Source: Aquibium carbonis (GTDB taxonomy: Bacteria > Pseudomonadota > Alphaproteobacteria > Rhizobiales > Rhizobiaceae). Taken from it: a stretch of DNA of 64,000 nucleotides. The notes under the pieces are model-generated. The model was not told where the DNA came from. It searched no databases and saw only the letters and a program-made list of their open reading frames with translations. Each line of letters begins with the position of its first letter. Positions within the stretch are counted from its first letter, which is position 1. The stretch lies in NCBI RefSeq assembly GCF_003970795.1, contig NZ_RWKW01000004.1, positions 1 to 64,000 on the forward strand, read 5' to 3'. Below, one piece after another: positions 578-15,092 of the stretch. Both the position numbers and the translations under genes were made by a program.

Positions 578-591
578 TTGATCCGGATCAA
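578..591. promoter_or_regulatory. FixK/FNR-type box upstream of the phasin gene
   Basis: TTGATCCGGATCAA is a perfect 14-bp palindrome matching the FNR/FixK consensus TTGAT-N4-ATCAA. It sits between the stop of the universal stress gene (639) and the phasin start (433), about 151 bp before the latter, so a leader of roughly 110 nt would follow if it works at -41. Confidence 0.8.
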
Positions 592-638
592 ACCCGGGGC
601 GAGACGGACGGCCGCCCCGGATTGGAGCCCCCAGGCCC

Positions 639-1475
639 TCAGCGGGCGAAGAGGACCGGGACGGTCGCCTCGTCGAGCATCGACTTCGTCGTGCCGCCGA
701 ACATGCGCTGGCGCAACCGGGAGTGGCCATAGGCGCCCATCACGATCAGGTCGGCGGCGACATCGACGGCGTGCTGGCGAAGCACGGCCGCGATGGGCTT
801 GCCGCCCGAAGGCAGGCGGTCGACGGAAACCTTGGCGCCGCGCCGCGCCAGATAGGTGGCGGCATCGGCACCCGGTTCGGCGCCATGCCCGTCCTCGCCC
901 TCGACGGGATCAATCAGCGTCAGGTGCACCGCGTCCGCCCCCGCCAGCAGATCGACAGCCGCATGCATGGCGCGCGAGGCCTCGATGCCGGCATCCCAGG
1001 CCAGCAGCACGCGCCGTGGCGAGATCGTCGGCTTTGCGCCCGCGGGCACGACCATCACCGGTTGCCCGGAGGAGAACATCGCGCCTTCGATGACCCTGGC
1101 GCCCAGAACCTCGTCGCCGAGCAATCCGGCGGCCGCGATGGTCAGGTCGGCATAGCGCGCGCGCCGGCCCACGACCTCGTCGGCCCAGGCGAGTTCCGGA
1201 TAGGCGGACGAGACGTCGGCGGAGATGGAGGTGCCGGCGAGCCTGGCCGTCACAGCGGCGCTGCGGTCGTCCAGCCGCTTCTGGCCGGCCTGGCGGTCCT
1301 GGATCCAGCCATCCGACACCATCGCCGCGAATTCCCCGACGGGCGGCGCGGGCGCGATCTCCACGATCAGCACCGACAGGTGCACGCCTTCGTCCTCGCA
1401 CAGCTTCATCGCCAGCGTCAGGTCGTCATCGCCGTTTTCCGTACCGATGATGGTCAGTATCGTCTTGATGGACAT
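639..1475 (-). CDS. Universal stress protein family (tandem USP domain)
   Basis: A 278-residue protein of the UspA superfamily, about twice the length of a single USP domain. The C-terminal half carries the nucleotide-binding signature G-x2-G-x9-G-(S/T), seen as GAYG followed by nine residues and GGT, ending in VPVLFAR, typical of USP proteins. The N-terminal half (SIKTILTIIGTENGDDDLTLAMKL) is a degenerate USP repeat. A GGAAAGGAAGAG stretch precedes the ATG at 1475. It is divergent from the cytochrome c gene at 1653, and a FixK-type half-conserved box (1543-1556) lies about 75 bp before its start. Such tandem USPs are common members of anaerobic/FixK regulons. Confidence 0.9.
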   Translation of the reverse strand: MSIKTILTIIGTENGDDDLTLAMKLCEDEGVHLSVLIVEIAPAPPVGEFAAMVSDGWIQDRQAGQKRLDDRSAAVTARLAGTSISADVSSAYPELAWADEVVGRRARYADLTIAAAGLLGDEVLGARVIEGAMFSSGQPVMVVPAGAKPTISPRRVLLAWDAGIEASRAMHAAVDLLAGADAVHLTLIDPVEGEDGHGAEPGADAATYLARRGAKVSVDRLPSGGKPIAAVLRQHAVDVAADLIVMGAYGHSRLRQRMFGGTTKSMLDEATVPVLFAR

Positions 1476-1542
1476 CGTCTCTTCCTTTCCGGGCGCGGTC
1501 GCCTTGCACGCTTGACCCTAGGTTCCAACGCGAAGGGCATCA

Positions 1543-1556
1543 TTGCGTTGGATCAA
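1543..1556. promoter_or_regulatory. FixK/FNR-type box facing the universal stress gene
   Basis: TTGCGTTGGATCAA keeps one perfect half (ATCAA) and the TTG of the other. Its centre is about 75 bp before the USP start at 1475, giving a leader of about 33 nt if it acts at -41.5. It is one of two boxes in the 177-bp divergent gap. Confidence 0.65.
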
Positions 1557-1583
1557 CTTCCGGGTACACGCGCCGGGTCCAGG

Positions 1584-1597
1584 TTGACCCGGATCAA
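1584..1597. promoter_or_regulatory. FixK/FNR-type box facing the cytochrome c gene
   Basis: TTGACCCGGATCAA matches TTGAy-N4-ATCAA. The centre is 62 bp before the ATG of the cytochrome c gene at 1653, the same spacing seen at several other boxes in this block. Confidence 0.8.
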
Positions 1598-1652
1598 GGC
1601 GCCGGCTCCACGCTGGTCTAGCCTGCGACGAAATGAACGACTGGAGGCGGCA

Positions 1653-2102
1653 ATGAAGACGATGGCGGCGGCGATCCTGGCGATGATGGCGGCCTCGTTG
1701 GTGACCGGCCCTGCGTGGGCGCAGGATGCGGGCGATGCCCCGCCCCCCGAGCAGGGCGCTGTCGACATGCCCTACGGAGAGGCCGAATTCCTGAATTCCT
1801 GCGTGGCCTGCCACGGCGACGACGGGCGCGGCGCAGGCCCGATCGCGGGCGATCTCCTCAAGCCGCCGACGGACCTCACGCTGCTGACGCGCGGCAATGA
1901 CGGCGCATTTCCATATTATCGCGTGTTTGCGGTGATCGACGGTCGGTATCTCGTCTCCGGGCATGGCGACCGCGAGATGCCGGTCTGGGGCCGCCAGTTC
2001 ATCGAGGAAGACGCGCGCATGTTCGGCGCGCAAGGTGGCGAGATGATCACGACCGAACGAATTCACGAGCTGACGAGTTACATCCAGAGCCTGCAACGCT
2101 GA
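1653..2102 (+). CDS. Small secreted c-type cytochrome
   Basis: A 149-residue periplasmic monoheme cytochrome c. A signal peptide covers about residues 1-23 (hydrophobic core AAAILAMMAASLV, cleavage near AWA-QD). The heme motif CVACH occurs near residue 51, and a distal Met in REMPVWG is a likely sixth ligand. GGAGG at 1643-1647 precedes the ATG. It probably carries electrons in the periplasm; partners are not in the window. It sits next to a FixK-type box, and the following kinase-like gene starts 29 nt after its stop, so the two may be co-transcribed. A second small cytochrome (8949-9272) has the same regulatory arrangement. Confidence 0.9.
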   Translation: MKTMAAAILAMMAASLVTGPAWAQDAGDAPPPEQGAVDMPYGEAEFLNSCVACHGDDGRGAGPIAGDLLKPPTDLTLLTRGNDGAFPYYRVFAVIDGRYLVSGHGDREMPVWGRQFIEEDARMFGAQGGEMITTERIHELTSYIQSLQR

Positions 2103-2131
2103 CGGCACGAACCCAGGGAAGGACCGAAGCG

Positions 2132-3667
2132 ATGATCGTCGAGGATCAGTCCCCAGTCGTCGCCTTCCTGTCCGATCCGGCGACGCATGGCGCCACCGGG
2201 CCGGTCGAGACGATGGAGACGCACATCTCGCGCATCTTCCTCGTCGGCGACCGGGCCTTCAAGATGAAGCGGGCGGTCAAGCTGCCCTATGTCGATTTCT
2301 CGACGCCCGACAGGCGGCTGGAAGCCTGCCGCCGCGAGGTCGCGTTCAATGGCGAAACCACGCCCGAACTCTATCTCGGCGTCCGCGCCATCACGCGCGG
2401 CGCGGATGGCGGCCTGACGCTCGATGGCGACGGCGTCCTCGTCGACGCCGTGGTGGAGATGGCGCGCTTCGACCAGGCCGCCCTCTTCGACCGGATCGCG
2501 CTGGCCGGCGGGCTGTCGCCCGACCTGATGACCGAGACGGCGCGCATGATCGTCCGGTTCCATCGCGCCGCGCCGACCGTTCATGCCGGCGCGGGCGCGG
2601 ACAACATCGCCGGGGTGCTGGACATCAACGAGGCGGCCTTTGCCGCGAGCGGCGTGTTCGGCACGGAAGCGGTCGCCACGCTCAACCGCGCCTTTCGGGA
2701 GGCGCTCGCCCGCCACGCCGCGCTGCTCGACCGGCGCGAGGCCGCCGGCAAGGTGCGCCGCTGCCATGGCGACCTGCACCTGCGCAACATCGTCCTGATC
2801 GATGGCGCGCCGCGCCTGTTCGACTGCATCGAGTTCAACGACGCGATCGCCACGATCGATACGCTCTATGATCTCGCGTTCCTTTTGATGGACCTTTGGC
2901 ATCGCGGCTACGATGCCTTCGCCAACCGGGTGATGAACCGCTATCTCGACGAGGCGGACGACGAGGACGGCTTCCCGCTGCTGCCGTTCTTCATGGCCAT
3001 CCGTGCGGCCGTGCGCGCCCATGTCACCGCCACGCGGATTGCGGATGGCGGCGATCCGGACGGGCGGCTTGGCGCCGAGGCACGGTCCTATTTCGATCTC
3101 GCCGGCCTTCTGCTCGAGCCGCGTCCGAACCGGCTGATTGCGATCGGCGGGCTGAGCGGCACGGGCAAGACGACCGTGGCGGAGGCGCTGGCGCCGACGC
3201 TCGGGCCACCGCCCGGCGCCCGCATCGTCGAAAGCGACCGCGTGCGCAAGGCCATGCACGGCGTGCCCGCCGAGACCCACCTCCCGCCAAAGGCCTACAC
3301 GCCGGAGATCTCGGAGCGGGTCTACGCGGAGATGGCCTGGCGGGCGGGGCTGATCCTGTCGGAAGGGGGAACGGTGGTGGCCGACGCGGTGTTCGATCGG
3401 CTCCCCGATCGGGAACGGATCGCCGGGGTGGCGCAGGCGCGATCCATTCCCTTCTGCGGCGTCTGGCTCGAAGCCGATCCGGCGCTGTTGTGGGAACGCG
3501 TGCGCGACCGCCGAGGCGGACCGTCCGACGCGACGGTCGACGTCCTGTCGCGGCAGCTCGCCCGCAAGGTCGAGTGCACCGACTGGGACCGGCTGGACGC
3601 GGCGCAACCGGCGGCTGGGATCGTCGAGGCGGTGCTGGCGCTGGCGGCAGCCAAGGGCGACGGGTAG
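2132..3667 (+). CDS. Bifunctional phosphotransferase-like / AAA ATP-binding protein
   Basis: A 511-residue fusion. The N-terminal two thirds resemble aminoglycoside phosphotransferase-like kinases: the catalytic loop is visible as RCHGDLHLRNIV and the metal-binding Asp as LFDCIEF. The C-terminal third, from about residue 335, is a P-loop kinase domain with Walker A GGLSGTGKTT and a second acidic stretch (VVADAVFDRLPDRERI). This two-domain architecture (COG2187 plus COG0645) is widespread in proteobacteria but, as far as I know, its substrate is unestablished; antibiotic resistance should not be assumed. It follows the FixK-box cytochrome gene by 29 nt and is likely in the same transcript. Confidence 0.85.
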   Translation: MIVEDQSPVVAFLSDPATHGATGPVETMETHISRIFLVGDRAFKMKRAVKLPYVDFSTPDRRLEACRREVAFNGETTPELYLGVRAITRGADGGLTLDGDGVLVDAVVEMARFDQAALFDRIALAGGLSPDLMTETARMIVRFHRAAPTVHAGAGADNIAGVLDINEAAFAASGVFGTEAVATLNRAFREALARHAALLDRREAAGKVRRCHGDLHLRNIVLIDGAPRLFDCIEFNDAIATIDTLYDLAFLLMDLWHRGYDAFANRVMNRYLDEADDEDGFPLLPFFMAIRAAVRAHVTATRIADGGDPDGRLGAEARSYFDLAGLLLEPRPNRLIAIGGLSGTGKTTVAEALAPTLGPPPGARIVESDRVRKAMHGVPAETHLPPKAYTPEISERVYAEMAWRAGLILSEGGTVVADAVFDRLPDRERIAGVAQARSIPFCGVWLEADPALLWERVRDRRGGPSDATVDVLSRQLARKVECTDWDRLDAAQPAAGIVEAVLALAAAKGDG

Positions 3668-3677
3668 CCCTGAGCCC

Positions 3678-3691
3678 CGCCGCCTGCGGCG
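3678..3691. terminator. Small hairpin between convergent genes
   Basis: CGCCGC-CT-GCGGCG lies in the 27-bp gap between the convergent kinase-like and acyl-CoA synthetase genes, followed on the plus strand by CTTCTAT. The stem is short and there is no clear T-tract, so a terminator role is tentative. Confidence 0.3.
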
Positions 3692-3694
3692 CTT

Positions 3695-6376
3695 CTATCG
3701 CAGGGTCAGCACCGCCAGATACACGCCCTGCTCCTGCGGGTGGTGCTCGATGACGAAGCCGAAGTCGCGGCACATGGCCAGCATCTTGTGGTTCTCGGCC
3801 AGGACGATGCCCTCGATCCGGCCGATTCCTTCGGCCCGCGCATATTCGATGAGCCGGCTCAGCAATGCGAAGCCCAGGCCTTGCCCCTGCACGTCGGTTC
3901 GGATCAGAAGCGCATATTCCGCCGCCTCGCGATCCGGATCGCTGGAGAGGCGACCGATGCCGGCGAGATCGCCGGACCCCTGCTCCAGCGCCACGAAGGC
4001 CATGTCGCGCCCATAGTCGAGCTGGGTCAGCCGCTTCAGCATCTCGTCGGGAAAATTCTTGCGCGGCGCGAGAAACCGGAACCGGATGTCGGCCGGCGAC
4101 GTCCTGTCGAGGAAGGCGGGATAGAGCGCGATGTCGGCCGGCCGGATCGGCCGGATGGCGTAGCGGGCCTGGCCGCTGTCGAAGTCGCTCTCCAGACCGG
4201 ACGGATAGGGGCGGATGGAGAGTGCGGGATTCGGCCCCGGGAGCCCGACCAGCATCGGATCGATCTGGATCCGCGCGTCGAGCGCGACCACGCCGTCCGC
4301 GTCGGCAAGCAAAGGGTTGACGTCGACGGAGACCATGCAGGGAAAGTCGACCGCCATCTGGGACAGGCCGTTGAGCGAACGGATGATGGCCGCCCGATCG
4401 GCCGGCTTGCGGTCGCGGAAGCCGGCGAGCAGCTTGCCGATCCGCGTCCGGTCGATCAGGTCGCCGGCCAGCACGTCGTCGAGCGGCGGAAGGGCGACGG
4501 CCGTGTCGTTCATCACTTCGACGGCGATGCCGCCGGCGCCGAACAGGATCACCGGTCCGAAGATCGGGTCGCTGCTGATCCCGACGATCAGTTCCTGCGC
4601 CTCGCGTCGCGTGATCATCGGCTGCACCGCGAAACCCTCGACGTCGCCCTCCGGCGCGAGCCTTCCGACCTTGTCGACGATGCCCTCGGCGGCCGCGCGC
4701 GCGCCATCGGCGCTGTCGATGCCGAGAACCACGCCACCGACGTCCGACTTGTGGGTGATCGTCTTGGACAACAGTTTCACGACCACCTTGTCCCACGTGC
4801 CGAGCAATCGTGCCGCAGCCTGGCCGGCCTCTTCCGGCGTGGCCGCGACGATCGTCTCGGGCGCCGGGATGCCATAGGCGGTGATCGCCGCCTTGGCTTC
4901 CGGCTCGGTGAGCATGTCGCGGCCTTCGGCGGCCACCTTGCGGAAGATCGCCTCCACCGTCTCGCGGTCCGCCTCGATGTCCTCGCCGCGGCTTTCGGGC
5001 ACCCGCGACAGTGCCGCCTGCGCCTTCGACCAGTCGGCCAGATAGGACAGCGCGGATGCGGTATCGGCGGGCGTCGCGAAGCTCGCCACGCCGGCCTCGT
5101 GCAGGATCTGCCGTCCTTCGCGCGCCGTGCTCTCGCCGAGCCAGCACGTCAGCACCGGCTTGCCATTGATCATGCCCTTCGTGGTGAGGTCGGCGACGGC
5201 GCGGGCCGATTCGACCGGGGAGGCGAGGCCGGTCGGACAATTGAACACCATGACGGCGTCGGTGCCGGGATCGGCCGCCACCGCCTCGATCGCCGCCACG
5301 TAACGCTCGGCCGGCGCATCGCCGATGATGTCGACGGGGTTTGCCCGCGACCAGGTCGGCGGAAGCGCCTTGTCCAGACTGGCGATCGTCTCCGTCGCCA
5401 GCGCGGCCAGCTCGCCGCCGCAGTCGATGATCTGGTCGACGGCGAGGACGCCGGCGCCGCCGCCATTGGTCACGATCGCCACCCGGGCGCGCCCAAGCGG
5501 CTGGAAACGGGCGGTGATCTCGGCGGCGTCGAAAAGCTCGCCAAGGCCGTTGACGCGCAGGATGCCGGCGCGCGACAGGGCCGCCTCGACGACCCGGTCG
5601 GCGCCCGACAGGGCACCGGTATGGGTCGCAGCGGCCGCGGCCGCCTCCTCGTGGCGGCCGGCCTTGATGGCGATCACCGGCTTGATGCGGGCGGCGGCGC
5701 GCGCCGCCGACATGAACTTGCGCGGGTTCGGGATCGATTCGAGATACATGACGATCGACTTCGTGCGCCCGTCGCCGGCCAGCATGTCGAGATAGTCGCC
5801 GACGTCCACGTCGGCCATGTCGCCCAGGGACACGATGTGCGAGAAGCCGAGATTGTTCTCCGCCGCCCAGTCGACCAGCGAGGTGGCGATGGCGCCCGAC
5901 TGCGACAGGAGGGCGATCCCGCCGGGCTGCGGGGTCATGTGCACGAAGCTGGCGTTCAGCTTGGCCGGGGGCACCATCAGCCCGACCGTGTTCGGGCCGA
6001 TGATGCGGAAGAGAGTGGGCTTCGCGGCGTCGAGCATGGCCTGCCTGAGCCCGTTGGCCACCGTCAGGCCGGCGGTGATGACGACGGCTGCCCGCGTGCC
6101 TTTCCTGCCCAGATCGCGGATCAGGCCGGGCACCGTGGCCGGCGGGGTGACGATCACCGCGAGATCCGGCGCTTCCGGCAGGCTTTCCGCATCCGGATAG
6201 CAGGTCAGGCCGGCGATCTCGGCATATTTGGGATTGACCGGCCAGATCGCGCCTTCGAAGCCGCCCTTGACGATGTTGCCCAGCACGACGCTGCCGACCG
6301 AGCGCTCGCGCGGCGAGGCGCCGACGACGGCGACGGATCGCGGGCGGGCGGCGAATTCGAGGTTCCTGATCGTCAC
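3695..6376 (-). CDS. ADP-forming acyl/acetyl-CoA synthetase fused to GNAT acetyltransferase
   Basis: An 893-residue protein of the NDP-forming acyl-CoA synthetase family with a C-terminal GNAT domain, the architecture of bacterial protein lysine acetyltransferases (Pat/PatZ). The CoA-binding Rossmann domain starts at residue 1 (SVAVVGASPRERSVG), the succinyl-CoA-ligase-like domain contains THTGALSG, which includes the His phosphorylated in active synthetases, an ATP-grasp region follows (ILFGAGGIAVEV), and the last about 160 residues are GNAT (QGQGLGFALLSRLIEYAR). In Pat homologues the synthetase part is often only a regulatory sensor; because His is kept here, activity cannot be excluded. 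A FixK-type box at 6433-6446 is 63 bp before its start, so protein acetylation may rise at low oxygen. Confidence 0.9.
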   Translation of the reverse strand: MTIRNLEFAARPRSVAVVGASPRERSVGSVVLGNIVKGGFEGAIWPVNPKYAEIAGLTCYPDAESLPEAPDLAVIVTPPATVPGLIRDLGRKGTRAAVVITAGLTVANGLRQAMLDAAKPTLFRIIGPNTVGLMVPPAKLNASFVHMTPQPGGIALLSQSGAIATSLVDWAAENNLGFSHIVSLGDMADVDVGDYLDMLAGDGRTKSIVMYLESIPNPRKFMSAARAAARIKPVIAIKAGRHEEAAAAAATHTGALSGADRVVEAALSRAGILRVNGLGELFDAAEITARFQPLGRARVAIVTNGGGAGVLAVDQIIDCGGELAALATETIASLDKALPPTWSRANPVDIIGDAPAERYVAAIEAVAADPGTDAVMVFNCPTGLASPVESARAVADLTTKGMINGKPVLTCWLGESTAREGRQILHEAGVASFATPADTASALSYLADWSKAQAALSRVPESRGEDIEADRETVEAIFRKVAAEGRDMLTEPEAKAAITAYGIPAPETIVAATPEEAGQAAARLLGTWDKVVVKLLSKTITHKSDVGGVVLGIDSADGARAAAEGIVDKVGRLAPEGDVEGFAVQPMITRREAQELIVGISSDPIFGPVILFGAGGIAVEVMNDTAVALPPLDDVLAGDLIDRTRIGKLLAGFRDRKPADRAAIIRSLNGLSQMAVDFPCMVSVDVNPLLADADGVVALDARIQIDPMLVGLPGPNPALSIRPYPSGLESDFDSGQARYAIRPIRPADIALYPAFLDRTSPADIRFRFLAPRKNFPDEMLKRLTQLDYGRDMAFVALEQGSGDLAGIGRLSSDPDREAAEYALLIRTDVQGQGLGFALLSRLIEYARAEGIGRIEGIVLAENHKMLAMCRDFGFVIEHHPQEQGVYLAVLTLR

Positions 6377-6432
6377 GTCGGTTTCTCCATCACTTCACCG
6401 GCACTGTCTGCGACCTTATCGCGGCCCAATCG

Positions 6433-6446
6433 TTGCGGTGGATCAA
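6433..6446. promoter_or_regulatory. FixK/FNR-type box facing the acyl-CoA synthetase/GNAT gene
   Basis: TTGCGGTGGATCAA has one perfect half-site and a TTG half. Its centre is about 63 bp before the minus-strand start at 6376 and about 134 bp before the DUF302 gene at 6574, so the minus-strand gene is the more likely target. Confidence 0.7.
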
Positions 6447-6573
6447 AGCGGCATCGGCGCGTGCGACCTAGTCTTAAGCATGATCATGCGACAGGTTCGC
6501 GATCTTTCGGGACGCGGGGCCGCTTCGCAACCGAGCTGCGGCCAGTCCGCGGCTCAAGAAGGAGACGTGAGCG

Positions 6574-6960
6574 ATGAGCTACTATTTCACCAAGACGATC
6601 GACATGCCGTTCGACGCGGCCGTTGCCCATGTGACAGAGGCGCTCGCGGCCAAGGGCTTCGGCGTCCTGACCACGATCGACGTCAAGGCGACGATGAAGA
6701 AGAAGCTGGATGTCGACTTCAAGCCCTACACCATTCTCGGCGCCTGCAATCCCAAGCTCGCCCTGAGCGCCCTGCAGGCCGAGGACAAGATCGGCACGAT
6801 GCTGCCCTGCAACGTGATCGTGACCGAGACGGCGCCCGGCAAGGTCGAGGTGGCGGCCGTCGATCCGGTGGCCTCGATGTCGGCCATCCAGAATCCGGCG
6901 CTCGGCGACATCGCCGGCAAGGTCCGCCAGATGATCTCGGACGTGGTGGACGCGCTCTAG
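6574..6960 (+). CDS. DUF302 domain protein
   Basis: A 128-residue single-domain cytosolic protein of the DUF302 family (residues about 34-97 form the core: ATMKKKLDVDFKPYTILGACNP, then MLPCNVIV). No signal peptide or membrane segment is seen. Biochemical function of the family is not known. A strong ribosome site AAGAAGGAGA lies ahead of the ATG. It starts the transcript that continues 45 nt later into a P-type ATPase. DUF302 genes often neighbour redox and heavy-metal genes, which fits here, but this is only association. Confidence 0.85.
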   Translation: MSYYFTKTIDMPFDAAVAHVTEALAAKGFGVLTTIDVKATMKKKLDVDFKPYTILGACNPKLALSALQAEDKIGTMLPCNVIVTETAPGKVEVAAVDPVASMSAIQNPALGDIAGKVRQMISDVVDAL

Positions 6961-7005
6961 CGGCCGGCCGGTCTGCGGCCACGGTCGGGAGGGGAGGTTG
7001 CGGCG

Positions 7006-8880
7006 GTGAGCGAAGGCATCTTGCGCAAGCTTCTGCTGGCCATCGCCCTGGCCGGTCTGGCGACGGGCCTTGCCGGCGCCGACCTCGGAACCGGGTGGAC
7101 ACCCGGAACCATCTGGACCCTGTCGACCCTTCCGGTGATCGCTCTGCTGGCCGTGTCCATCGTGCGCGATTTCATGATCGGGCGGGTGGGGGTCGATGCC
7201 ATCGCCCTGGTGTCGATGTCGGCGGCGCTGCTGCTCGACCAGCCGCTGGCGGCGGTGGTGGTGGCGGTGATGTATGCCGGCGGCAGCGTGCTGGAAGACT
7301 ATGCCCGCGGCCGCGCCCAGCGCGAGTTGCGCGCCCTGTCGGACCGTTCGCCGCGCATCGCTCATCTCCAGGTCGGCGGACGGCTGGAGGACGTCGCCGT
7401 CGAGCGGGTCGAGGTGGGCGACGAACTGCTCGTCCGCGCCGGAGACGTGCTGCCGGTCGATGGGGTTCTCCTTGGCGAAACCGCAGCGATCGACGAGTCG
7501 GCCGTGACCGGCGAGCCGTTGCCAAGGCATCTGCGCCAGGGCGACCGCCTGTTCAGCGGCACCGTCAATGCGGGCGAAACCTTCCGGATGCGGGCCACCG
7601 CCATGGCGCGCGCCAGCACCTATGCCGGCATCGTGCGCATGGCGGAGGCGGCGCAGACGGCGAGGGCGCCGCTGATGCGCATGGCGGACCGTTTCGCGCT
7701 CTGGCTCCTGCCCGTCACACTGGCGGTCGCCGGGCTCGCCTGGTGGCTCTCGGGGGATCCGGTTCGCGGACTGGCGGTGCTGGTCGTCGCCACGCCCTGC
7801 CCGCTCATCCTGGCGGCACCGGTCGCCTTCATCGGCGGCGTCTCGCGCGCGGCCAAGGCGGGCGTGCTGATGAAGGGCAGCGCCGCGCTGGAGGCGCTGG
7901 CTGGCGCAACCACCGCGATCTTCGACAAGACCGGGACGCTCACCCATGGCGGGGCGGAACTGATCGGGATGGAAGCCGCGCCGGGGCGCGACCCCGATGA
8001 GTGCCTGCGCCTGCTGGCCTCCCTCGAGCAGGCTTCGCCCCATGTCGTGGCGGCGGCCGTGGTGGAGATCGCCAGGACGCGCGACCTCGCCCTGTCTCCC
8101 CCCCGCGACGTGCGCGAACAGCGAGGCGCGGGCGTGGAAGGCCTGGTCGACGACGTCAGGGTCAGGGCGGGTTCGCGCAGCTACGTCGTCGACGACGCGG
8201 AGACGCCGCTGTGGGCCGAGCGCGCCGCGCTGCGGTACGCGGGACAACCGATCCTGATCGTCCACCTGACGATCGACGGCCGCCTGGCGGCCCTGTTCTT
8301 CTTCGGAGACAGCCTTCGCGGCGACGCGCTCGACACGCTCGCGGCGCTGAGGGAGGCGGGGATCACCCGGACGGTGATGCTGACGGGGGACGATTCCGAC
8401 GCGGCGACCCGCATCGGCGAGACGCTGCGCCTCGACCGCCTGCTGGCGAATGCCGACCCTGCGGCCAAGGTCGCCGCGGTCGCGGAGGAGCGGGCGCGAG
8501 CACCCACGCTGATGGTGGGCGACGGCATCAACGACGCCCCGGCGCTGGCCTCGGCGACGGTCGGAATCGCCATGGGGGCACGTGGCGCCACGGCCTCCTC
8601 GGAGGCGGCCGACATCGTGATCCTGACCGATCGGCTGAAGCCGGTGGCGACGGCCGTTGCCATCGCCCGGCGCACGCGCGGCATCGCCCTGCAGAGCATC
8701 GTCGCGGGGATCGGGCTGTCCGGCGTCGCCATGGTCTTTGCCGCGTTCGGATATCTGACGCCCGTCGCCGGGGCGCTGGTGCAGGAGGCCATCGACGTCG
8801 CGGTGATCCTCAATGCGCTGCGGGCGCTCGGCGGCGGCGACCCCACGGCCCGGCGCGCCATCAAGGCCGGACGGTCTTGA
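7006..8880 (+). CDS. P1B-like heavy-metal-translocating P-type ATPase with CPL motif
   Basis: A 624-residue membrane pump. Visible motifs are the actuator sequence AVTGEPLP, the phosphorylation site DKTGTLT with Asp at residue 307, and the hinge GDGINDAPAL. The transmembrane metal motif is TPCPLIL (Cys265-Pro-Leu) rather than CPC, SPC or CPH. There is no N-terminal HMA domain and no His-rich extension, and the usual HP dipeptide of P1B pumps appears as SPHVVA. About six membrane helices are evident, fewer than the usual eight. It is therefore not FixI/CcoI, and metal specificity cannot be assigned. The start is GTG at 7006 with GGGGAGG about 9 nt upstream. Its stop overlaps a FixK-type box belonging to the next gene. 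Confidence 0.85.
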   Translation: MSEGILRKLLLAIALAGLATGLAGADLGTGWTPGTIWTLSTLPVIALLAVSIVRDFMIGRVGVDAIALVSMSAALLLDQPLAAVVVAVMYAGGSVLEDYARGRAQRELRALSDRSPRIAHLQVGGRLEDVAVERVEVGDELLVRAGDVLPVDGVLLGETAAIDESAVTGEPLPRHLRQGDRLFSGTVNAGETFRMRATAMARASTYAGIVRMAEAAQTARAPLMRMADRFALWLLPVTLAVAGLAWWLSGDPVRGLAVLVVATPCPLILAAPVAFIGGVSRAAKAGVLMKGSAALEALAGATTAIFDKTGTLTHGGAELIGMEAAPGRDPDECLRLLASLEQASPHVVAAAVVEIARTRDLALSPPRDVREQRGAGVEGLVDDVRVRAGSRSYVVDDAETPLWAERAALRYAGQPILIVHLTIDGRLAALFFFGDSLRGDALDTLAALREAGITRTVMLTGDDSDAATRIGETLRLDRLLANADPAAKVAAVAEERARAPTLMVGDGINDAPALASATVGIAMGARGATASSEAADIVILTDRLKPVATAVAIARRTRGIALQSIVAGIGLSGVAMVFAAFGYLTPVAGALVQEAIDVAVILNALRALGGGDPTARRAIKAGRS

Positions 8881-8890
8881 CACGGGTCAA
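8877..8890. promoter_or_regulatory. FixK/FNR-type box overlapping the ATPase stop
   Basis: TTGACACGGGTCAA is a palindrome of the TTGAC-N4-GTCAA type. Its first four bases overlap the ATPase stop codon; the centre is about 65 bp before the cytochrome start at 8949, so it probably gives the downstream genes their own promoter. Confidence 0.75.
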
Positions 8891-8948
8891 GGCCCTTGCG
8901 GCGCTTCATGAGAAGATGCAACCCTTCCAACGAAAGGCGAGGACGCAC

Positions 8949-9272
8949 ATGTCGAACACAAAGCCCTGGTTGCTGCTCCTGGCCATTGCCTTCGTGCAGC
9001 CGGCCGCCGCCAGCGATCCCGAGAGCGCCTTTCGCGGCAAGCGCCTGGCCGAGGTGAACTGCGCCGACTGCCACGCCATCGCGCAGGTCGACGAGAGCCT
9101 GGACCCGGCGGCGCCACCGTTCCGCAGCATGGCCGAACGCCGCGACCTGGCCTCGCTGCGAACCGAGATGACCGGCGACCTGTTTCTCCGCCACGCGGTG
9201 ATGCCGGATTTCGAGCCGGATGCGGGGCAGGCGAACGACATCGTGACCTATATCGAGAGTATCCAGGACTGA
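8949..9272 (+). CDS. Small secreted c-type cytochrome
   Basis: A 107-residue periplasmic monoheme cytochrome c. The signal peptide spans about residues 1-21 (WLLLLAIAFVQPAAA-S). The heme site is C38-A-D-C41-H42 and Met85 in RHAVMPDF is the likely distal ligand. The ATG at 8949 is preferred over one 36 nt upstream because GGCGAGGA lies just ahead of it. It is followed after 31 nt by thioredoxin 2 and then a DUF4010 protein, giving a plausible three-gene transcript under the box at 8877-8890. Confidence 0.88.
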   Translation: MSNTKPWLLLLAIAFVQPAAASDPESAFRGKRLAEVNCADCHAIAQVDESLDPAAPPFRSMAERRDLASLRTEMTGDLFLRHAVMPDFEPDAGQANDIVTYIESIQD

Positions 9273-9303
9273 CGCGCCTGGCGAGAAGGATGGGAGACGC
9301 GTG

Positions 9304-9753
9304 ATGGGTGAGGAGAACCTGATCGTCTGCAGCCGCTGCGCGGCGGTGAACCGGCTTTTGCCCGGCCGGAACGCCGAAGAGGGAAAATGCGGCAAGTGCC
9401 ACGAGCCGCTGTTTTCGGGTCATCCGGAAGACATCGACGCCGCCAATTTCGACAAGCAGGTGTCGCGCGGGACGGTGCCGGTGCTGGTCGACGTCTGGGC
9501 GCCCTGGTGCGGTCCGTGCCGGATGATGGCGCCCGCCTTCGAGGCGGCGGCGCGCGAGCTCGAGCCCCAGGTGCGGCTGATCAAGCTGAATTCCGACAAC
9601 GAGCAGGCGGTCGCCAACCGGCTGGGCATTCGCGGCATCCCGACCATGATCCTGTTTCGGGCGGGTTCCGAGATCGCCCGCACGTCCGGCGCGCTGACCA
9701 CGTCGCAGATCGTCTCCTGGACCCGCGACCACCTGCAACGCGCGCGCGCCTGA
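9304..9753 (+). CDS. trxC: Thioredoxin 2 (zinc-ribbon thioredoxin)
   Basis: A 149-residue cytosolic disulfide reductase. The N-terminus has two CxxC pairs (IVCSRC near residues 9-12 and KCGKCHE near 29-32), forming the zinc ribbon that separates TrxC from TrxA. The thioredoxin fold follows, with active site WCGPC and the cis-Pro loop RGIPTMILF. Start codon is GTG (9301) or ATG (9304); ATG fits better with GGGAG spacing. TrxC is a redox-stress thioredoxin in other bacteria, which fits its place among low-oxygen genes. Confidence 0.92.
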   Translation: MGEENLIVCSRCAAVNRLLPGRNAEEGKCGKCHEPLFSGHPEDIDAANFDKQVSRGTVPVLVDVWAPWCGPCRMMAPAFEAAARELEPQVRLIKLNSDNEQAVANRLGIRGIPTMILFRAGSEIARTSGALTTSQIVSWTRDHLQRARA

Positions 9754-9763
9754 GCGCAACCGG

Positions 9764-11029
9764 ATGGATCCGCTCCTTCCGCGCCTTGGCCTGGCCCTCG
9801 CGATCGGCCTGCTGGTGGGGCTGGAAAGGGGCTGGCGCGAGCGCGACGCACCCGACCGCAGCCGTACCGCAGGCTTCCGGACCTACGGCATTTCCGGTCT
9901 GCTCGGCGGCATCTTCGCCGCCCTCGGCGCGGCCGTCGATTCGGTGGCGGTCCTTGCCGTCGGCTTCGTCGGCTTCACGGCCGTCTTTGCCTGGTTCAAG
10001 CTGCGCGAGGCCACGCATGATGCCGATTTCAGCGTGACCGGGGTGATCGCGGGCATGGCGGTCTTCGCGCTGGGGGCCCTGGCGGTGGCGGGCGACACGC
10101 TCGCCGCCGCGGCCGGCGGCACCGCGCTGACGGCCCTTCTTGCAAGCCGCGAGGTTCTTCACGGCATGCTGAAGAAGCTGACCTGGACCGAGCTGCGCTC
10201 GGCACTCGTGCTCGCGGTCATGACCATCATCGTGCTGCCGGTCCTGCCCGACCGGACGATCGATCCCTGGGGCGGCGCCAACCCACGCGAAATCTGGTTC
10301 TTCACGGTTCTCATCGCGGCCATCTCCTTTGCCGGCTATGTCGCGACGCGGATCCTGGGCGAAAAGCGCGGCTTGCTGGTGAGCACGCTGGCGGGCGCGG
10401 TGGTTTCGTCCACGGCGGTCACCGTGGCGCTCGCCCGCATGGCGAAGAGCGGGCCGACCGTGCTGCCGCTCGCCGGCGCCGCCTCGCTCGCGGCCATGGT
10501 TTCGCTGCTGCGCGTGGGCGCCATCGTCGGCGCCATACGGCCCACGGTTCTGGCCCATGCGGGACTGCCGATCGTCGCGGCCGCCATCGTTCTGGCCGCA
10601 TCGGCCGGGGTGATGTTTTTCCGCGATGGCGGCGCGGAACCGATGGAGCAGCCCGCGCGCAACCCGTTCGACCTGGCGCCGCTGCTGGCCTTCGCAGCCC
10701 TGTTCGCCTTCGTTTCCACGGTGAGCGCGGCCTTGTCGGGGCTGGTCGACGAACGCGGCCTGCTGGCGACGTCCGCCGTATCGGGCACGTTCGACGTCGA
10801 CGTCGCGGTCCTGAGTTCGCTGCGGCTGGTGGAGCAAGGCATCGCACCGGCGACCGTGGCGGTCGCCGTTCTCCTGGCGCTCGCGGCCAATGCCGTCGGG
10901 CGGCTGGTGCTCGCGGCCCTGGCAGGCCCGGCGCGCTTCGTGCTGCCGCTGGGGGTGGCGACCGCGCTGGCCGGGCTGGCCGGCGCATCCGCTTATCTTG
11001 TGCTCGCGCCGCTGCCCTTTCCTGCCTGA
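9764..11029 (+). CDS. MgtC/SapB-DUF4010 family integral membrane protein
   Basis: A 421-residue polytopic membrane protein with about eleven or twelve hydrophobic segments. The N-terminal part (LALAIGLLVGLERGWRER) is MgtC/SapB-like, and the C-terminal two thirds correspond to DUF4010. MgtC itself affects magnesium-limited growth through ATP synthase, but the long DUF4010 members have no settled function that I know of. The gene begins 10 nt after trxC and so is probably translated from the same message; no strong ribosome site is visible. Confidence 0.82.
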   Translation: MDPLLPRLGLALAIGLLVGLERGWRERDAPDRSRTAGFRTYGISGLLGGIFAALGAAVDSVAVLAVGFVGFTAVFAWFKLREATHDADFSVTGVIAGMAVFALGALAVAGDTLAAAAGGTALTALLASREVLHGMLKKLTWTELRSALVLAVMTIIVLPVLPDRTIDPWGGANPREIWFFTVLIAAISFAGYVATRILGEKRGLLVSTLAGAVVSSTAVTVALARMAKSGPTVLPLAGAASLAAMVSLLRVGAIVGAIRPTVLAHAGLPIVAAAIVLAASAGVMFFRDGGAEPMEQPARNPFDLAPLLAFAALFAFVSTVSAALSGLVDERGLLATSAVSGTFDVDVAVLSSLRLVEQGIAPATVAVAVLLALAANAVGRLVLAALAGPARFVLPLGVATALAGLAGASAYLVLAPLPFPA

Positions 11030-11037
11030 CCGCAACC

Positions 11038-11051
11038 TTGATTCCGATCAA
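11038..11051. promoter_or_regulatory. FixK/FNR-type box
   Basis: TTGATTCCGATCAA has perfect TTGAT/ATCAA arms. The centre is about 60 bp before the ATG at 11105, matching the spacing of the other boxes in this block. Confidence 0.8.
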
Positions 11052-11104
11052 GGCGTGTTCGGATCACCCGGCTACTACGATCGGAGCGAAAGAAGGAAAC
11101 ACCG

Positions 11105-11491
11105 ATGACGCAACTCAAGGATCTCTCCCCGAACTTCCGTCACGTGCGCCTGCTGCTCGCCCGCGAGAAGGGCCACCCGGCCGGCGAACGAGACGAGGGC
11201 TACGACATCCTCGCACCGCTGCAGGCGGACGGGCGGCTCGATGCCGCGGACTGGAAGACGCATCAGGAGCATTGCCGGGTCCGACATTTTCGCCCGGGCG
11301 AGAACGATCGGATCGGTCGGCTGCGCCGCAAGCCCGGCGGCACCTGGTTCTTCGACTACGAGGAGGGCGACCGCGACGACGAGGTCGGTTTCCGCTTCGG
11401 CGCGGAGCGCTTCGTCACCGGCGAATACGTGTCGGTGAAGAGCGACGGCGCCATGCACACCTATCAGGTCGCGCGCGTCGAACGACCGTGA
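11105..11491 (+). CDS. Conserved hypothetical protein under a FixK-type box
   Basis: A 128-residue soluble acidic/basic protein that I do not recognise as a named family. It has no signal peptide, membrane segment or cysteine pair. The middle is strongly charged (RVRHFRPGENDRIGRLRRKPGG) and followed by an aromatic/acidic stretch (WFFDYEEGDRDDEVGF). GAAAGAAGGAAACACC precedes the ATG. A perfect FixK-type box lies 60 bp upstream, so it is very likely induced with the rest of the block; the NAD(P)H reductase gene follows 43 nt later. Confidence 0.75.
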   Translation: MTQLKDLSPNFRHVRLLLAREKGHPAGERDEGYDILAPLQADGRLDAADWKTHQEHCRVRHFRPGENDRIGRLRRKPGGTWFFDYEEGDRDDEVGFRFGAERFVTGEYVSVKSDGAMHTYQVARVERP

Positions 11492-11534
11492 GCGGCGGCG
11501 GGCGATCCGCGCCGACGACGAAGCCGGAAACACG

Positions 11535-12125
11535 ATGTCCCGCCGCATCCTGATCGTGATCGGCCATCCCGACCCTTCGCCCGACCGGTTCGCCCGCGCT
11601 CTGGCGCAGGCCTATGCGGACGGCGCGACGGCTGCGGGCCACGAGGTTCGCCTCGTCGACCTTGCCGGCCTCGACTTCCCCCTGCTGCAGACGCGCGCGG
11701 CGTTCGAGACCGGCGAGCCACTTCCCGTGCTGGCGCAGGCGGTCGACGACCTGCGCTGGTGCGAGCACGTCGTCTTCGTCTTTCCGCTCTGGCTCGGCAC
11801 CATGCCGGCCCTGCTGAAGGCCTTCCTGGAGCAGGTCATCCGACCGGGCATCGCCTATGCACGTCCCGAAAGCGGCAGGGGCTGGGCGCGTCCCCTGCTG
11901 CGGGGCCGCTCCGCGCGGCTCGTGGTGACGATGGGCATGCCCGCCCTCCTCTACCGCCTCTGGTTCCTCTCCCACGGCGTTGCCGGCATGCGGCGCAGCA
12001 TCCTGGGGTTTGCCGGCATCCGCCCGGTGCGCCAGACGCTGATCGGGCTCGTGGAAGGCGCAAGCGACCCCCGCCGCACGGCATGGCTCGCGCGGTTGCG
12101 CATGCTTGGCGCCCGGGCGGCCTGA
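11535..12125 (+). CDS. NAD(P)H-dependent oxidoreductase, flavodoxin-like fold
   Basis: A 196-residue member of the NAD(P)H:quinone oxidoreductase (MdaB/Kef-ancillary) family. It opens with a flavodoxin-type strand-loop (RILIVIGHPDPSPDRFARAL), and the flavin contact region PLWLGTMPALLKAFLEQV is typical of the family. It probably binds FMN or FAD and reduces quinones or similar acceptors with NAD(P)H in the cytosol. It ends the low-oxygen block before fixL and may share the transcript of the preceding hypothetical gene. Confidence 0.88.
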   Translation: MSRRILIVIGHPDPSPDRFARALAQAYADGATAAGHEVRLVDLAGLDFPLLQTRAAFETGEPLPVLAQAVDDLRWCEHVVFVFPLWLGTMPALLKAFLEQVIRPGIAYARPESGRGWARPLLRGRSARLVVTMGMPALLYRLWFLSHGVAGMRRSILGFAGIRPVRQTLIGLVEGASDPRRTAWLARLRMLGARAA

Positions 12126-12383
12126 GGCGCTCTCCGCGGCCCGGCCACCCCAAAGGCGCGCGCAGGCCCAATCCGCGTCGCGTGCCCGGGTCCGTCGCTC
12201 CACGGTCTCCGGCGCTTCGCGTGTTGACCGGACGAAGCCTATCCTGCGATATGGGCCGATGCCGGTTCATGACCGCGCCGTCATGTCCAACGACGCCGAG
12301 ACGAGCCTTGTGATGGAGTCGATCCCGTATTGTGCCCGGCCTTCGGGCCAGCCGCGGGCGCGACATGCAACAGACTGACGACC

Positions 12384-13904
12384 ATGGACATCCATCCCAT
12401 CGCCCGGGACGAGAATCGGCTGCTGAGCAGATCGCTGGCGTATCGATGCGCGGGTTTTCGCGGCTACGGCATCGCGCTCCTGGTCGTCGCGATCGCCTTC
12501 ACCGCCCGCCTCGCGCTCGACGATTCGCTCGACGGCCATGCGGTGTTCGCGCCGTTCCTGCCGGCGATCCTGATCGTCTCCGGCTTCTGCGGGCTCGGAG
12601 CGGCCGCGTTCGCGTTCGGGCTTTCGCTCGCGGGCGCCTGGTACATCCACGAGCTTCAGCCGGGCGAGGCCGTCCCGTCCGTGGAAATGCTGCTCTACAC
12701 GCTGACCGGCGTGCTGACGATCGCGATGGGCGAGATCATCAACCGGTCGCGTTTCGCCGCCGAGCGGACCGGCGAAATCCTGAAGGAGCGGGAGGCGCAT
12801 CTCGCCTCGATCCTGAACACGGTGCTCGACGCCACCATCGTCATCGACCGAAAGGGCACGATCGTGTCCTTCAACACGGCCGCCGTGCGCCAGTTCGGCT
12901 ATGCGGCGGACGAGGTGATCGGCCGCAACGTGCGCATCCTGATGCCTGAGCCCTACCAGGCGCAGCATGACGGCTACATGCAGCGCTACATGGCGACGGG
13001 CGAAAAGCGCATCATCGGCACCGATCGCGTGGTGGTGGGCCGGCGCAAGGACGGTTCGACCTTTCCCATGAAGCTCGCCGTCGGCGAAATGAAGAGCGGC
13101 GACCGGCTATACTTCACCGGCTTCGTGCGCGACCTGACGGAGCGTGAGGAATCGGCCGCTCGCCTGCAGGAGGTGCAAGGCGAACTGGCGCGGCTGGCGC
13201 GGCTCAACGAACTGGGCGAGATGGCATCGACGCTGGCGCACGAGCTGAACCAGCCGCTGTCGGCGATCGCCAATTACGCGCAAGGCTGCACGCGCCTTTT
13301 GCGCGGCGCAGAGGACGGACCGTCGATGCGGGTGCGCGAGGCGCTGGAGGAAATCTCGCGCCAGTCGCTGAGGGCGGGCCAGATCATTCGCCATCTGCGC
13401 GAATTCGTGATGCGCGGCGAGACCGACAAGCAGGCCGAAGACATTCGCCGGATGGTGGAGGAGGCCGGCGCGCTGGCGCTGGTGGGTTCGCGCGAGCGCG
13501 GCGTGCGCTCGGTGTTCGACTTCCGGCCGGGGGCCGAGCTCGTGCTCGCCGACCGCGTCCAGATCCAGCAGGTGCTGATCAACCTCATGCGCAACGCCAT
13601 GGAGGCGATGAGCGACAGCGAGCGCCGCGAACTCACCATTCGCACGACGCCGCACGGCGACGGCATGGTGGCGGTGGAGGTGTCGGATACCGGCCCCGGC
13701 ATTTCCGACGAGGTGGCGGCCCGCCTGTTCCAGCCTTTCGTCACGTCAAAGGCCGGCGGAATGGGCATTGGCCTGTCCATATCGAAGCGGATCATCGAAT
13801 CCCACGGCGGCACCATGGAGGCGCAACGCGCGGACCAGGGCGGGGCGCTCTTCCGGTTCACCCTGCCCGCGATCGAGAGCGAGACGAGCAATGGAAACAG
13901 GTGA
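12384..13904 (+). CDS. fixL: FixL-type oxygen-sensing histidine kinase (heme PAS)
   Basis: A 506-residue membrane sensor kinase. Three or four hydrophobic segments lie between residues 28 and 118, followed by a PAS domain (about 135-255). The PAS contains the FixL heme pocket pattern: His195 in [11 protein letters not shown] corresponds to the proximal heme ligand (His200 in Bradyrhizobium FixL) and Arg215 in [10 protein letters not shown] to the ligand-sensing Arg220. The kinase part has phospho-acceptor His286 (AHELNQPL), then N, G1 (DTGPGIS) and G2 (MGIGLSIS) boxes. FixL autophosphorylates when oxygen leaves the heme and passes phosphate to FixJ. The start at 12384 has no strong ribosome site. 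It overlaps fixJ by 14 nt. Confidence 0.93.
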
Positions 13905-14508
13905 GTATGTCGTTCACATCGTGGACGACGAGGAACCGGTCAGGAAATCGCTGGCCTTCATGCTGACCATCGCCGGATTTCCGGTCCGCATGCACGAGTC
14001 CGCGGCCGCTTTCCTGGCCGCCGCGCCGGGACTGCGCAATGCCTGCCTGGTGACCGATCTGCGCATGCCCGAGATCAACGGCGTCGATCTGATCCGGCGC
14101 CTGCGCGACATGGCGGTGTCGGTTCCCTCGATCGTCATCACCGGCCATGGCGACGTGCCGATGGCGGTGGAGGCCATGAAGGCCGGTGCGCTCGACTTCA
14201 TCGAGAAGCCCTTCGAGGACGAGGTCTTGATCGCCGCGATCACCCGCGCGGCGGCGGAACTCGATCGCCAGGCCGCGACGCAGGATTCCACCGACATTCT
14301 CCGGCGGCTCGAACAGCTCACCGACCGCGAGCGCGAGGTGCTGGCCGCCGTGGTGGCCGGCCATGCCAACAAGACCATCGCCTACGACCTGAACATCAGC
14401 CCGCGAACGGTCGAGGTTCATCGGGCCAACGTCATGGCCAAGATGGATGCCCGGAGCCTGCCGGAGCTGGTGCGCATGGCGCTTGCGGCAGGGATCGTTC
14501 CCAAATAG
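13891..14508 (+). CDS. fixJ: FixJ-type response regulator
   Basis: A 205-residue two-domain regulator. The receiver (about residues 6-120) has the acidic pair in HIVDDEEP, phospho-acceptor Asp56 (VTDLRMP), Thr in VITGHGD and Lys in FIEKPFED. The C-terminal LuxR/NarL-type helix-turn-helix spans about 140-200 ([19 protein letters not shown], then [14 protein letters not shown]). The ATG at 13891 overlaps the fixL end, implying translational coupling. Phospho-FixJ activates fixK in rhizobia; a partial FixJ-site match is seen ahead of fixK here. Confidence 0.95.
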
Positions 14509-14535
14509 GCCGATCTCCAGCACGGCGCGCCATTT

Positions 14536-14549
14536 TTGACCTGGAGCAA
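14536..14549. promoter_or_regulatory. FixK/FNR-type box upstream of the stand-alone receiver gene
   Basis: TTGACCTGGAGCAA matches the consensus except for one base in the right half (AGCAA for ATCAA). It is centred about 90 bp before the GTG at 14633, in the gap after fixJ. It would let FixK regulate the receiver gene and perhaps its own upstream region. Confidence 0.55.
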
Positions 14550-14632: not shown

Positions 14633-15007
14633 GTGAAGCATGGCCGCAAGGTTCTGGTCGTGGTCCCGAACGACGAGCTTCGTCGCTCGATCGAGTTCAC
14701 GGTCGAGGCCGAAGGCTACGAAATCGAATCGCATGCGGGCTTCCCGACGGTCTTCGCCTCGCACAAGTTCAACGGCTTCGATTGCGCCGTGGTCGACGAG
14801 GACGCGGTGGATGCGCGCCAGCGCAACCTGATCGAGTTTGCGCGGATCGCCGGCGACGAGCGGCCGGTCGTCGTCCTGGTGGACAGGACCGCGACGCTGG
14901 ACAGCGTCGTGCCGTTCAAGCTGCTCCGCAAGCCGCTGCTCGGGCCCGCGCTGGTGGAGGCGATCCTGCCGAAGGTGGGGGCCAAGACTGCGGAACCGGC
15001 TACGTAG
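14633..15007 (+). CDS. Stand-alone receiver-domain protein, possible FixT-like anti-kinase
   Basis: A 124-residue protein consisting only of a divergent response-regulator receiver domain. Predicted sites are Asp14 (in VVVPND, the acidic pair reduced to Asn-Asp), candidate phospho-acceptor Asp55 (FDCAVVDED) and the conserved Lys100-Pro101 (LLRKPL). There is no output domain. GTG at 14633 is chosen because GGAGG lies about 9 nt upstream and homology-like sequence starts there; a longer reading begins at 14549 with low-complexity sequence. Its position between fixJ and fixK, plus a FixK-type box, resembles fixT, a small receiver-like inhibitor of FixL in Sinorhizobium and Caulobacter. That function is inferred; it has only one Cys. 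Confidence 0.72.
   Translation: MKHGRKVLVVVPNDELRRSIEFTVEAEGYEIESHAGFPTVFASHKFNGFDCAVVDEDAVDARQRNLIEFARIAGDERPVVVLVDRTATLDSVVPFKLLRKPLLGPALVEAILPKVGAKTAEPAT
15000..15007 (+). promoter_or_regulatory. Possible FixJ-binding site ahead of fixK
   Basis: CTACGTAG matches seven of eight bases of the class I FixJ site GTAMGTAG as I recall it from Sinorhizobium work. It overlaps the stop of the receiver gene and is about 86 bp before the fixK ATG, a distance that would suit an activator site near -50 with a short leader. An 8-bp match alone is weak. Confidence 0.35.
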
Positions 15008-15092
15008 AACCCCGTAGGGACATGAACGAATACAAGCGACCGGAAAAATAGGCGAGCTTGCACCGACAGAACGAACAGCGTCGGAGGAAGCC

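Follow-up and report, generated by a model that had tools for sequence, protein, structure and literature searches.

The 64,000-nucleotide stretch of Aquibium carbonis contig NZ_RWKW01000004.1 (assembly GCF_003970795.1) analyzed here, called the window below and used for all coordinates, contains an island in which fixL, fixJ, fixT and fixK lie together with seven FixK/FNR-type boxes. As read from the sequence, this island very probably constitutes a self-contained low-oxygen circuit, in which FixLJ would switch on fixK, FixK would act on the seven boxes, and a FixT homologue would provide feedback. Circuits of this kind are already known; the island represents a very complete one and not a new kind.

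The boxes, their conservation, their spacing to the -10 element in relatives, the homology to FixT and the FixJ-type site were obtained here; for protein activities, operons, oxygen response and read-through we infer the following. By homology to characterised FixLJ systems, FixL would phosphorylate FixJ once oxygen leaves the heme of its PAS domain, and phosphorylated FixJ would bind the FixJ-type site before fixK and start fixK transcription. Dimers of FixK would then occupy the seven boxes and, from the class II position at -41.5, recruit RNA polymerase. Predicted to be activated are the genes for a phasin, a universal stress protein, the family encoded at 11105 and FixT, two small cytochromes c with their operons (one with an APH/AAA kinase, the other with thioredoxin and DUF4010), and an acyl-CoA ligase, a DUF302 protein with a metal P-type ATPase, or both. 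FixT, a single receiver domain, would dampen FixL, and transcription that reads through from the fixT promoter into fixK would provide positive autoregulation as well. FnrN, encoded elsewhere in the genome, may use the same boxes.

The FixK2 box consensus of B. diazoefficiens as given in the accessible part of PMC5582078, TTGMNNNNNNKCAA, i.e. TTG(A/C)-N6-(T/G)CAA, has exactly seven matches in the window. They are identical with the 14-mers in which the initial annotation had recognized FixK/FNR-type boxes defining a low-oxygen island, and all seven lie where it had placed them. Two are on the minus strand, TTGATCCGGATCAA at 578-591 facing the phasin gene and TTGATCCAACGCAA at 1543-1556 facing the universal stress protein gene (usp). 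On the plus strand, TTGACCCGGATCAA at 1584-1597 precedes the first small cytochrome c gene (cytc1), TTGACACGGGTCAA at 8877-8890 the second (cytc2), TTGATTCCGATCAA at 11038-11051 the gene at 11105, and TTGACCTGGAGCAA at 14536-14549 fixT; the box at 6433-6446, with no strand assigned, lies between acs, the acyl-CoA ligase gene, and duf302. In 100 dinucleotide shuffles of the window the same consensus was matched 2.02 times on average and at most six times. At the genome rate measured outside the island, its 14 kb would hold 0.45 sites (P for at least seven ~5e-7), and the clustering retains P ~4e-4 after a rough scan correction.

Conservation was followed in four genomes of the same genus, drawn by a relatives search (L221-L224). 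L221 and L222 have the same gene order and seven boxes in the same gaps, with none further in those stretches, and one of the two has no flavodoxin gene. In L223 the island is partial and lacks the box between acs and duf302, and L224, a genome 69% complete, has two boxes in place within the 5.5-kb stretch examined. In six intergenic regions the arm columns of the boxes are identical at 56 of 56 positions across three genomes, whereas identity holds for 293 of the 661 remaining ungapped columns (44%); for this comparison gapped columns outside the boxes were skipped, the slices were cut by hand, and the usp-cytc1 slice of L221 ends short of the gene. The boxes are thus intergenic and conserved in place before the same genes, with the one at 8877 overlapping the stop codon of the P-type ATPase gene in the window and, in two congeners, situated 24-30 bp past the point where the ATPase match ends.

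A wider sample consisted of 80 loci from Mesorhizobium, Aquamicrobium and relatives, selected around fixK homologues. Per-gene counts over these loci, the congeners and the window score a box up to 220 bp from the start; they omit tblastn hits starting past residue 25, homologues with less than 80 nt upstream (which leaves six for cytc1) and, for five gene families, hits below 45% identity. A box precedes 19/19 homologues of fixT, 18/19 of usp, 22/23 of acs, 22/23 of duf302, 6/6 of cytc1, 4/4 of cytc2 and 3/3 of phasin; for the 11105 gene (80 loci) the count is 32 of 32, at ~54-60 bp for the 31 whose distance was computed. The box is mostly absent from the genes for thioredoxin (trx, 0/26), DUF4010 (0/12), the P-type ATPase (1/20), fixL (1/19) and the flavodoxin-fold oxidoreductase (3/23), which would lie inside operons or have separate promoters. 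The loose form of the pattern occurs at background frequency in the genome, so that the pattern alone would be insufficient and the claim rests on place and conservation; on these grounds the seven boxes are confirmed as genuine, conserved FixK/FNR-type sites, that is, as predicted binding sites.

The promoter geometry agrees with this assignment. Four boxes had been described as centred 60-66 bp before a start codon, and this holds for cytc1 (62.5 bp), acs (63.5 bp), cytc2 (65.5 bp) and the 11105 gene (60.5 bp); the remaining distances are 74.5 bp for usp, 90.5 bp for fixT, 134.5 bp for duf302 and 151.5 bp for phasin. The gene starts used agree with an ad hoc gene caller, except that of cytc1, which the caller missed. 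The 80 loci, taken together with the window (1.59 Mb in all), contain 478 boxes, against 44, 60 and 31 matches to three control patterns, in a sample that is rich in such promoters by design, the loci having been chosen by their fixK homologues. Noncoding positions account for 415 of the 478 boxes and for 12/44, 13/60 and 4/31 of the control matches, and 254 boxes have their nearest start at 50-100 bp. To look for a -10 element, 236 noncoding boxes (window excluded) that each have one gene start at a distance of 40-120 bp were clustered to 132 promoters sharing less than 60% identity over the 45 nt that follow the box. Of these 132, 22 have a TANNNT starting 21-22 nt past the box, while control windows gave a mean of 0.98 and a maximum of 4. 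For the relatives as a group, this box-to--10 spacing corresponds to the predicted layout of a class II (-41.5) activator, and activation at -41, as first proposed, is supported by the noncoding position, the start spacing and a -10 element at class II distance. Conservation in place, together with these features, likewise upholds the FixK/FNR-type identity of the boxes and the island as such.

Within the window a full TANNNT at 21-22 nt is seen only for phasin (TATCCT at 22 nt), usp (TAGGGT at 22 nt), cytc1 (TAGCCT at 21 nt) and duf302 (TAGTCT 22 nt from the 6433 box). The distance of this last box to acs is conserved, 53.5-63.5 bp in 21 of 22 boxed homologues and 142.5 bp in one, and that to duf302 varies between 82.5 and 134.5 bp. 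Given the tight spacing on one side and the variable spacing on the other, the box may serve acs, duf302 or both.

The proposed regulators of these promoters are encoded at the downstream end of the island. FixL (12384-13904, plus strand, without a box) is a PAS sensor kinase with heme PAS, HisKA and HATPase domains, heme binding being predicted. Its identity to S. meliloti FixL is 60%, and His195, Arg215 and His286 are common to both; we take these residues to have their usual roles, with His195 as proximal histidine and His286 as phospho-acceptor. FixJ (13891-14508, plus strand), a response regulator, matches the NCBIfam FixJ equivalog with 306.9 bits, above the cut-off of 255. The Crp/Fnr activator FixK (15093-15746, plus strand) has the FNR-type recognition helix LGLTIETVSR and one cysteine in its first 60 residues, without the FNR cysteine cluster. 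An FNR-type helix without the four cysteines defines the FixK subfamily in the part of PMC2908626 available, and the window protein is accordingly a predicted member.

Before fixK lies a FixJ-type site (15000-15023, plus strand, with CTACGTAGAACCCCGTAGGG at 15000-15019), which agrees with the GTAMGTAG / TAAGTAATTTCCCTTA type; the window version of the CSNAATWT element, ACGAATAC, is imperfect. Its cores CTACGTAG and CCGTAGGGACAT are invariant in eight aligned loci, and variants of the site precede fixK in 34 of 87 loci. The pattern CTACGTAGN3CCCGTAGGG has a single perfect match in the genome, the site before fixK, and four others with three mismatches, where the reversed control gave 14 and 7 such hits. 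The site between fixT and fixK fits the FixJ sites brought together in the accessible part of PMC4999443. We also observed that the stop codon end of fixT (15000-15007) lies inside this site.

The gene behind the box at 14536 (14633-15007, plus strand, GTG start), overlooked in the initial annotation, is a predicted FixT homologue with a single receiver domain. FixT is its sole NCBIfam match (E 4.8e-6, 26.6 bits; S. meliloti FixT itself obtains 27.9 bits), it is 31% identical to S. meliloti FixT with ten columns invariant across 13 sequences, and its structural model (pLDDT 78.7) matches receiver domains. Its single cysteine, Cys51, is invariant in the 13 aligned sequences. It sits between fixJ and fixK, as fixT does on an S. 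meliloti pSymA. FixT inhibits FixL according to the part of PMC7078487 at hand, so that homology, place and box together predict a loop FixLJ -> FixK -> FixT -| FixL in the window. Because the box precedes all the fixT homologues examined, the data further suggest that such FixK-driven FixT feedback may be common in this Rhizobiales group, beyond Sinorhizobium and Caulobacter. A different arrangement was noticed at 21 of the 80 fixK loci (L048-L127), where a box stands no more than 200 bp before fixK and a fixT-like gene was not found, which suggests possible FixK autoregulation without FixT.

Several observations weigh against this picture of the circuit. Genome-wide, the loose 14-mer shows no excess, with 178 matches against 165 for the pattern read backwards. 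Several family scores stay below their NCBIfam equivalog cut-offs: FixL reaches 517 bits of 850, the FixT homologue falls short of 150, as does S. meliloti FixT, and FixK obtains 192 bits against the 300 set for Caulobacter FixK, with S. meliloti FixK at 194 also below. In the window cytc2 has no TANNNT, acs has one only at 14 nt, the 11105 gene has it at 24 nt (TACTAC at 21), and fixT has only the incomplete TATCCG at 22 nt. Independence cannot be claimed for homologues that come from related Mesorhizobium loci, and fixK guided the choice of the 80 loci. Lastly, the genome encodes both FixK and FnrN with the same recognition helix, and the boxes cannot tell them apart.

This last point leads to the strongest alternative, that the boxes are mainly bound by FnrN (C165:21982-22710), an Fe-S oxygen sensor, so that the island would answer oxygen directly with FixLJ-FixK as a minor or condition-specific input. 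FnrN has N-terminal cysteines, which we presume to serve oxygen sensing, and boxes occur in the gap before fnrN and by the nearby hemN-like, COX1 (ccoN-like) and fixG genes. Its helix is the same LGLTIETVSR, and therefore FixK and FnrN may share sites; the part of PMC2908626 available describes the motifs of FNR, DNR and FixK as virtually identical. On the other hand, fixK is within the island and has its own FixJ-type site, and many of the 80 relative loci show boxes near fixK, although these loci were chosen by fixK. On balance we consider predominant binding by FnrN somewhat unlikely.

Less probable still is a second alternative, which concerns feedback: the 14633 gene would encode a competing single-domain response regulator that acts as a phosphate sink for FixL, and not a direct FixT-type kinase inhibitor. 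The receiver fold of the model speaks for a sink, as do Asp55 and Lys100, which do not vary among the 13 aligned sequences, yet the nearest family is FixT, and S. meliloti FixT, which shares both residues, was not seen to be phosphorylated, according to the accessible part of PMC7078487. Where receivers usually have an acidic pair, the alignment shows mostly P-D or P-N, once P-G, and A-D in the two Sinorhizobium rows, which argues against a sink. An inhibitor of the FixT type thus remains the preferred reading of this gene.

The search patterns also bear on chance as an explanation. A scan for the 14-mer across the genome, proposed at the outset, gave a divided answer: enrichment of the loose form has to be rejected on the counts above, and the strict form TTGAYN4RTCAA, matched by four of the seven window boxes, occurs 35 times against 2 for its control. 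TTGATN4ATCAA occurs 11 times against 0, and the evidence for mixed boxes, TTGAYN4CGCAA, is weak (6+13 against 8+4 for the control). An FNR form, TTGATN4ATCAA with up to two mismatches, has 17 matches in the window against 10.0 expected, with additional island matches at 1465 (the usp start) and, within genes, at 2615, 5664 and 14128. That the boxes arose by chance, as 14-mers picked out by eye with a loose pattern in a GC-rich genome, is hardly credible and already refuted in general, though individual boxes could be idle: the background level of the loose form and a two-mismatch count equalled in 6 of 100 shuffles favor it, against which stand a consensus taken from print, the excess in the window, the invariant arms, and boxes found before fixT and the 11105 gene and almost never before trx, DUF4010 or fixL. 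A rule that would orient mixed boxes with the TTGAT half upstream and the CGCAA half downstream, prompted by fixT, acs and usp, was unsupported; noncoding near-start boxes only, those with a single start 50-110 bp away and not all 478, gave 33 for TG+CG and 18 for the opposite GT+GC, counts that are not independent.

Beyond the window, 31 strict sites were found, 27 of them noncoding by the gene caller and 21 at 40-130 bp from a predicted start; four are in predicted coding sequence and six more have no start 40-130 bp away, leaving them without a likely target. Mixed boxes outside the window were listed for selected loci and two longer stretches only. Genes beside the strict sites include Radical-SAM hemN-like, fnrN, COX1 (ccoN-like), fixG, cytochrome c assembly, CBS-BON, PfkB, universal stress protein, PhaR and phosphoribosyltransferase genes. 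One strict box, at C164:63591 (L166), lies between phaR, a PHB accumulation regulator, and a gene that we take from its sequence to be thiolase-like, which fits the phasin box at 578. A second DUF302 gene (C45:8090-9611; L026, L234) lies ~1.1 kb from another Crp/Fnr-type regulator. As predicted from sequence, the wider site set of this genome agrees with the FNR/FixK regulons in the available parts of PMC2908626, PMC6515984 and PMC4999443.

The genes between the boxes complete the map. On the minus strand are phasin (Phasin_2, 44-433; domain match, start in agreement with the gene caller), usp (639-1475; domain match, gene caller) and acs (3695-6376), encoding an ADP-forming acyl-CoA ligase with a GNAT domain. 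The others are on the plus strand. The cytochrome c gene cytc1 (1653-2102) would be the first of an operon with the APH/AAA_33 fusion kinase (phosphotransferase/AAA) at 2132-3667; duf302 (6574-6960, domain match) is followed by the heavy-metal P-type ATPase gene (7006-8880), and cytc2 (8949-9272, domain match) by trx (9301-9753) and an MgtC/DUF4010 membrane protein gene (9764-11029). The thioredoxin, inside this putative low-oxygen operon, matches a Thio2-type zinc ribbon weakly (23.3 bits, cut-off 27.1). A flavodoxin-fold NAD(P)H oxidoreductase gene (11535-12125) lies between the 11105 gene and fixL. Four uncharacterised families had been named among the targets, DUF302, DUF4010, the phosphotransferase/AAA fusion and a hypothetical: DUF302 does have a box upstream, as does the 11105 gene, whereas DUF4010 and the phosphotransferase/AAA gene have none of their own. 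The same is true in the window of trx and the P-type ATPase gene, and all four would be reached solely via operon read-through.

The gene at 11105-11491 (plus strand) encodes a 128-residue beta-rich protein of an unnamed family. It has no Pfam or NCBIfam match; among solved structures no significant relative was found by sequence (best E 0.72), and a fold search with the model (pLDDT 82.6) returned nothing significant (best Foldseek E 0.14). Of 289 alphaproteobacterial genomes, 54 contain homologues at E <=0.001, four of them with short weak matches only, and the 25 listed of 41 in plasmid records are hypothetical or unannotated. For the 29 best-scoring loci from these 54 genomes, apart from the window's own, a box lies upstream in 9, against 0/29 for each of three controls (one locus, L250, has ~60 nt upstream), and a usp-like gene lies within ~1.5 kb in 13.

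These observations allow a bolder reading in two parts, which we offer tentatively and would hold to be rather less than an even bet: the fixT-fixK transcription unit would hold both loops, positive autoregulation by read-through from its box and negative feedback through FixT, with FixJ bound at the site on the fixT stop codon possibly limiting read-through, and the 11105 family, unnamed, with no recognised fold, and boxed in 32/32 near and 9/29 distant homologues, would be a class-wide low-oxygen effector. More broadly, a motif list made by eye has become a testable circuit with all its parts in less than 16 kb, and a feedback protein has been named among the unknowns. DUF302, DUF4010, the APH/AAA kinase and the 11105 family now share a predicted condition of expression.

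Among the closest known systems is the fixL-fixJ-fixT-fixK cluster on S. meliloti pSymA, which resembles the window in gene order, FixT sequence features, FixL identity and, as in print, a FixJ site before fixK. There, however, ccoN follows, while the window cluster adjoins a metabolic and stress island and its host has the COX1 (ccoN-like) gene and fixG on another contig, with fnrN. Caulobacter FixLJ-FixT-FixK likewise uses a single-receiver feedback inhibitor induced by the pathway (PMC7078487, as far as available), but the four-cysteine motif of its FixT is absent from the window homologue. With the FixK2 regulon of B. diazoefficiens the window shares the box consensus, and in the same accessible part of PMC5582078 the nosR box lies 40.5 bp from the start site; universal stress, phasin and DUF302 proteins are among the microoxia-induced genes or proteins in the available part of PMC6515984, and an island of this composition was not met in the portions of that literature covered. 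FixT, DUF302 and the 11105 family were not met in the FNR/FixK core regulon of the Alphaproteobacteria, within the part of PMC2908626 available. The resemblance lies in the predicted core itself, which takes in UspA, a heavy-metal P-type ATPase, oxygen-independent coproporphyrinogen oxidase and a FixG-type protein.

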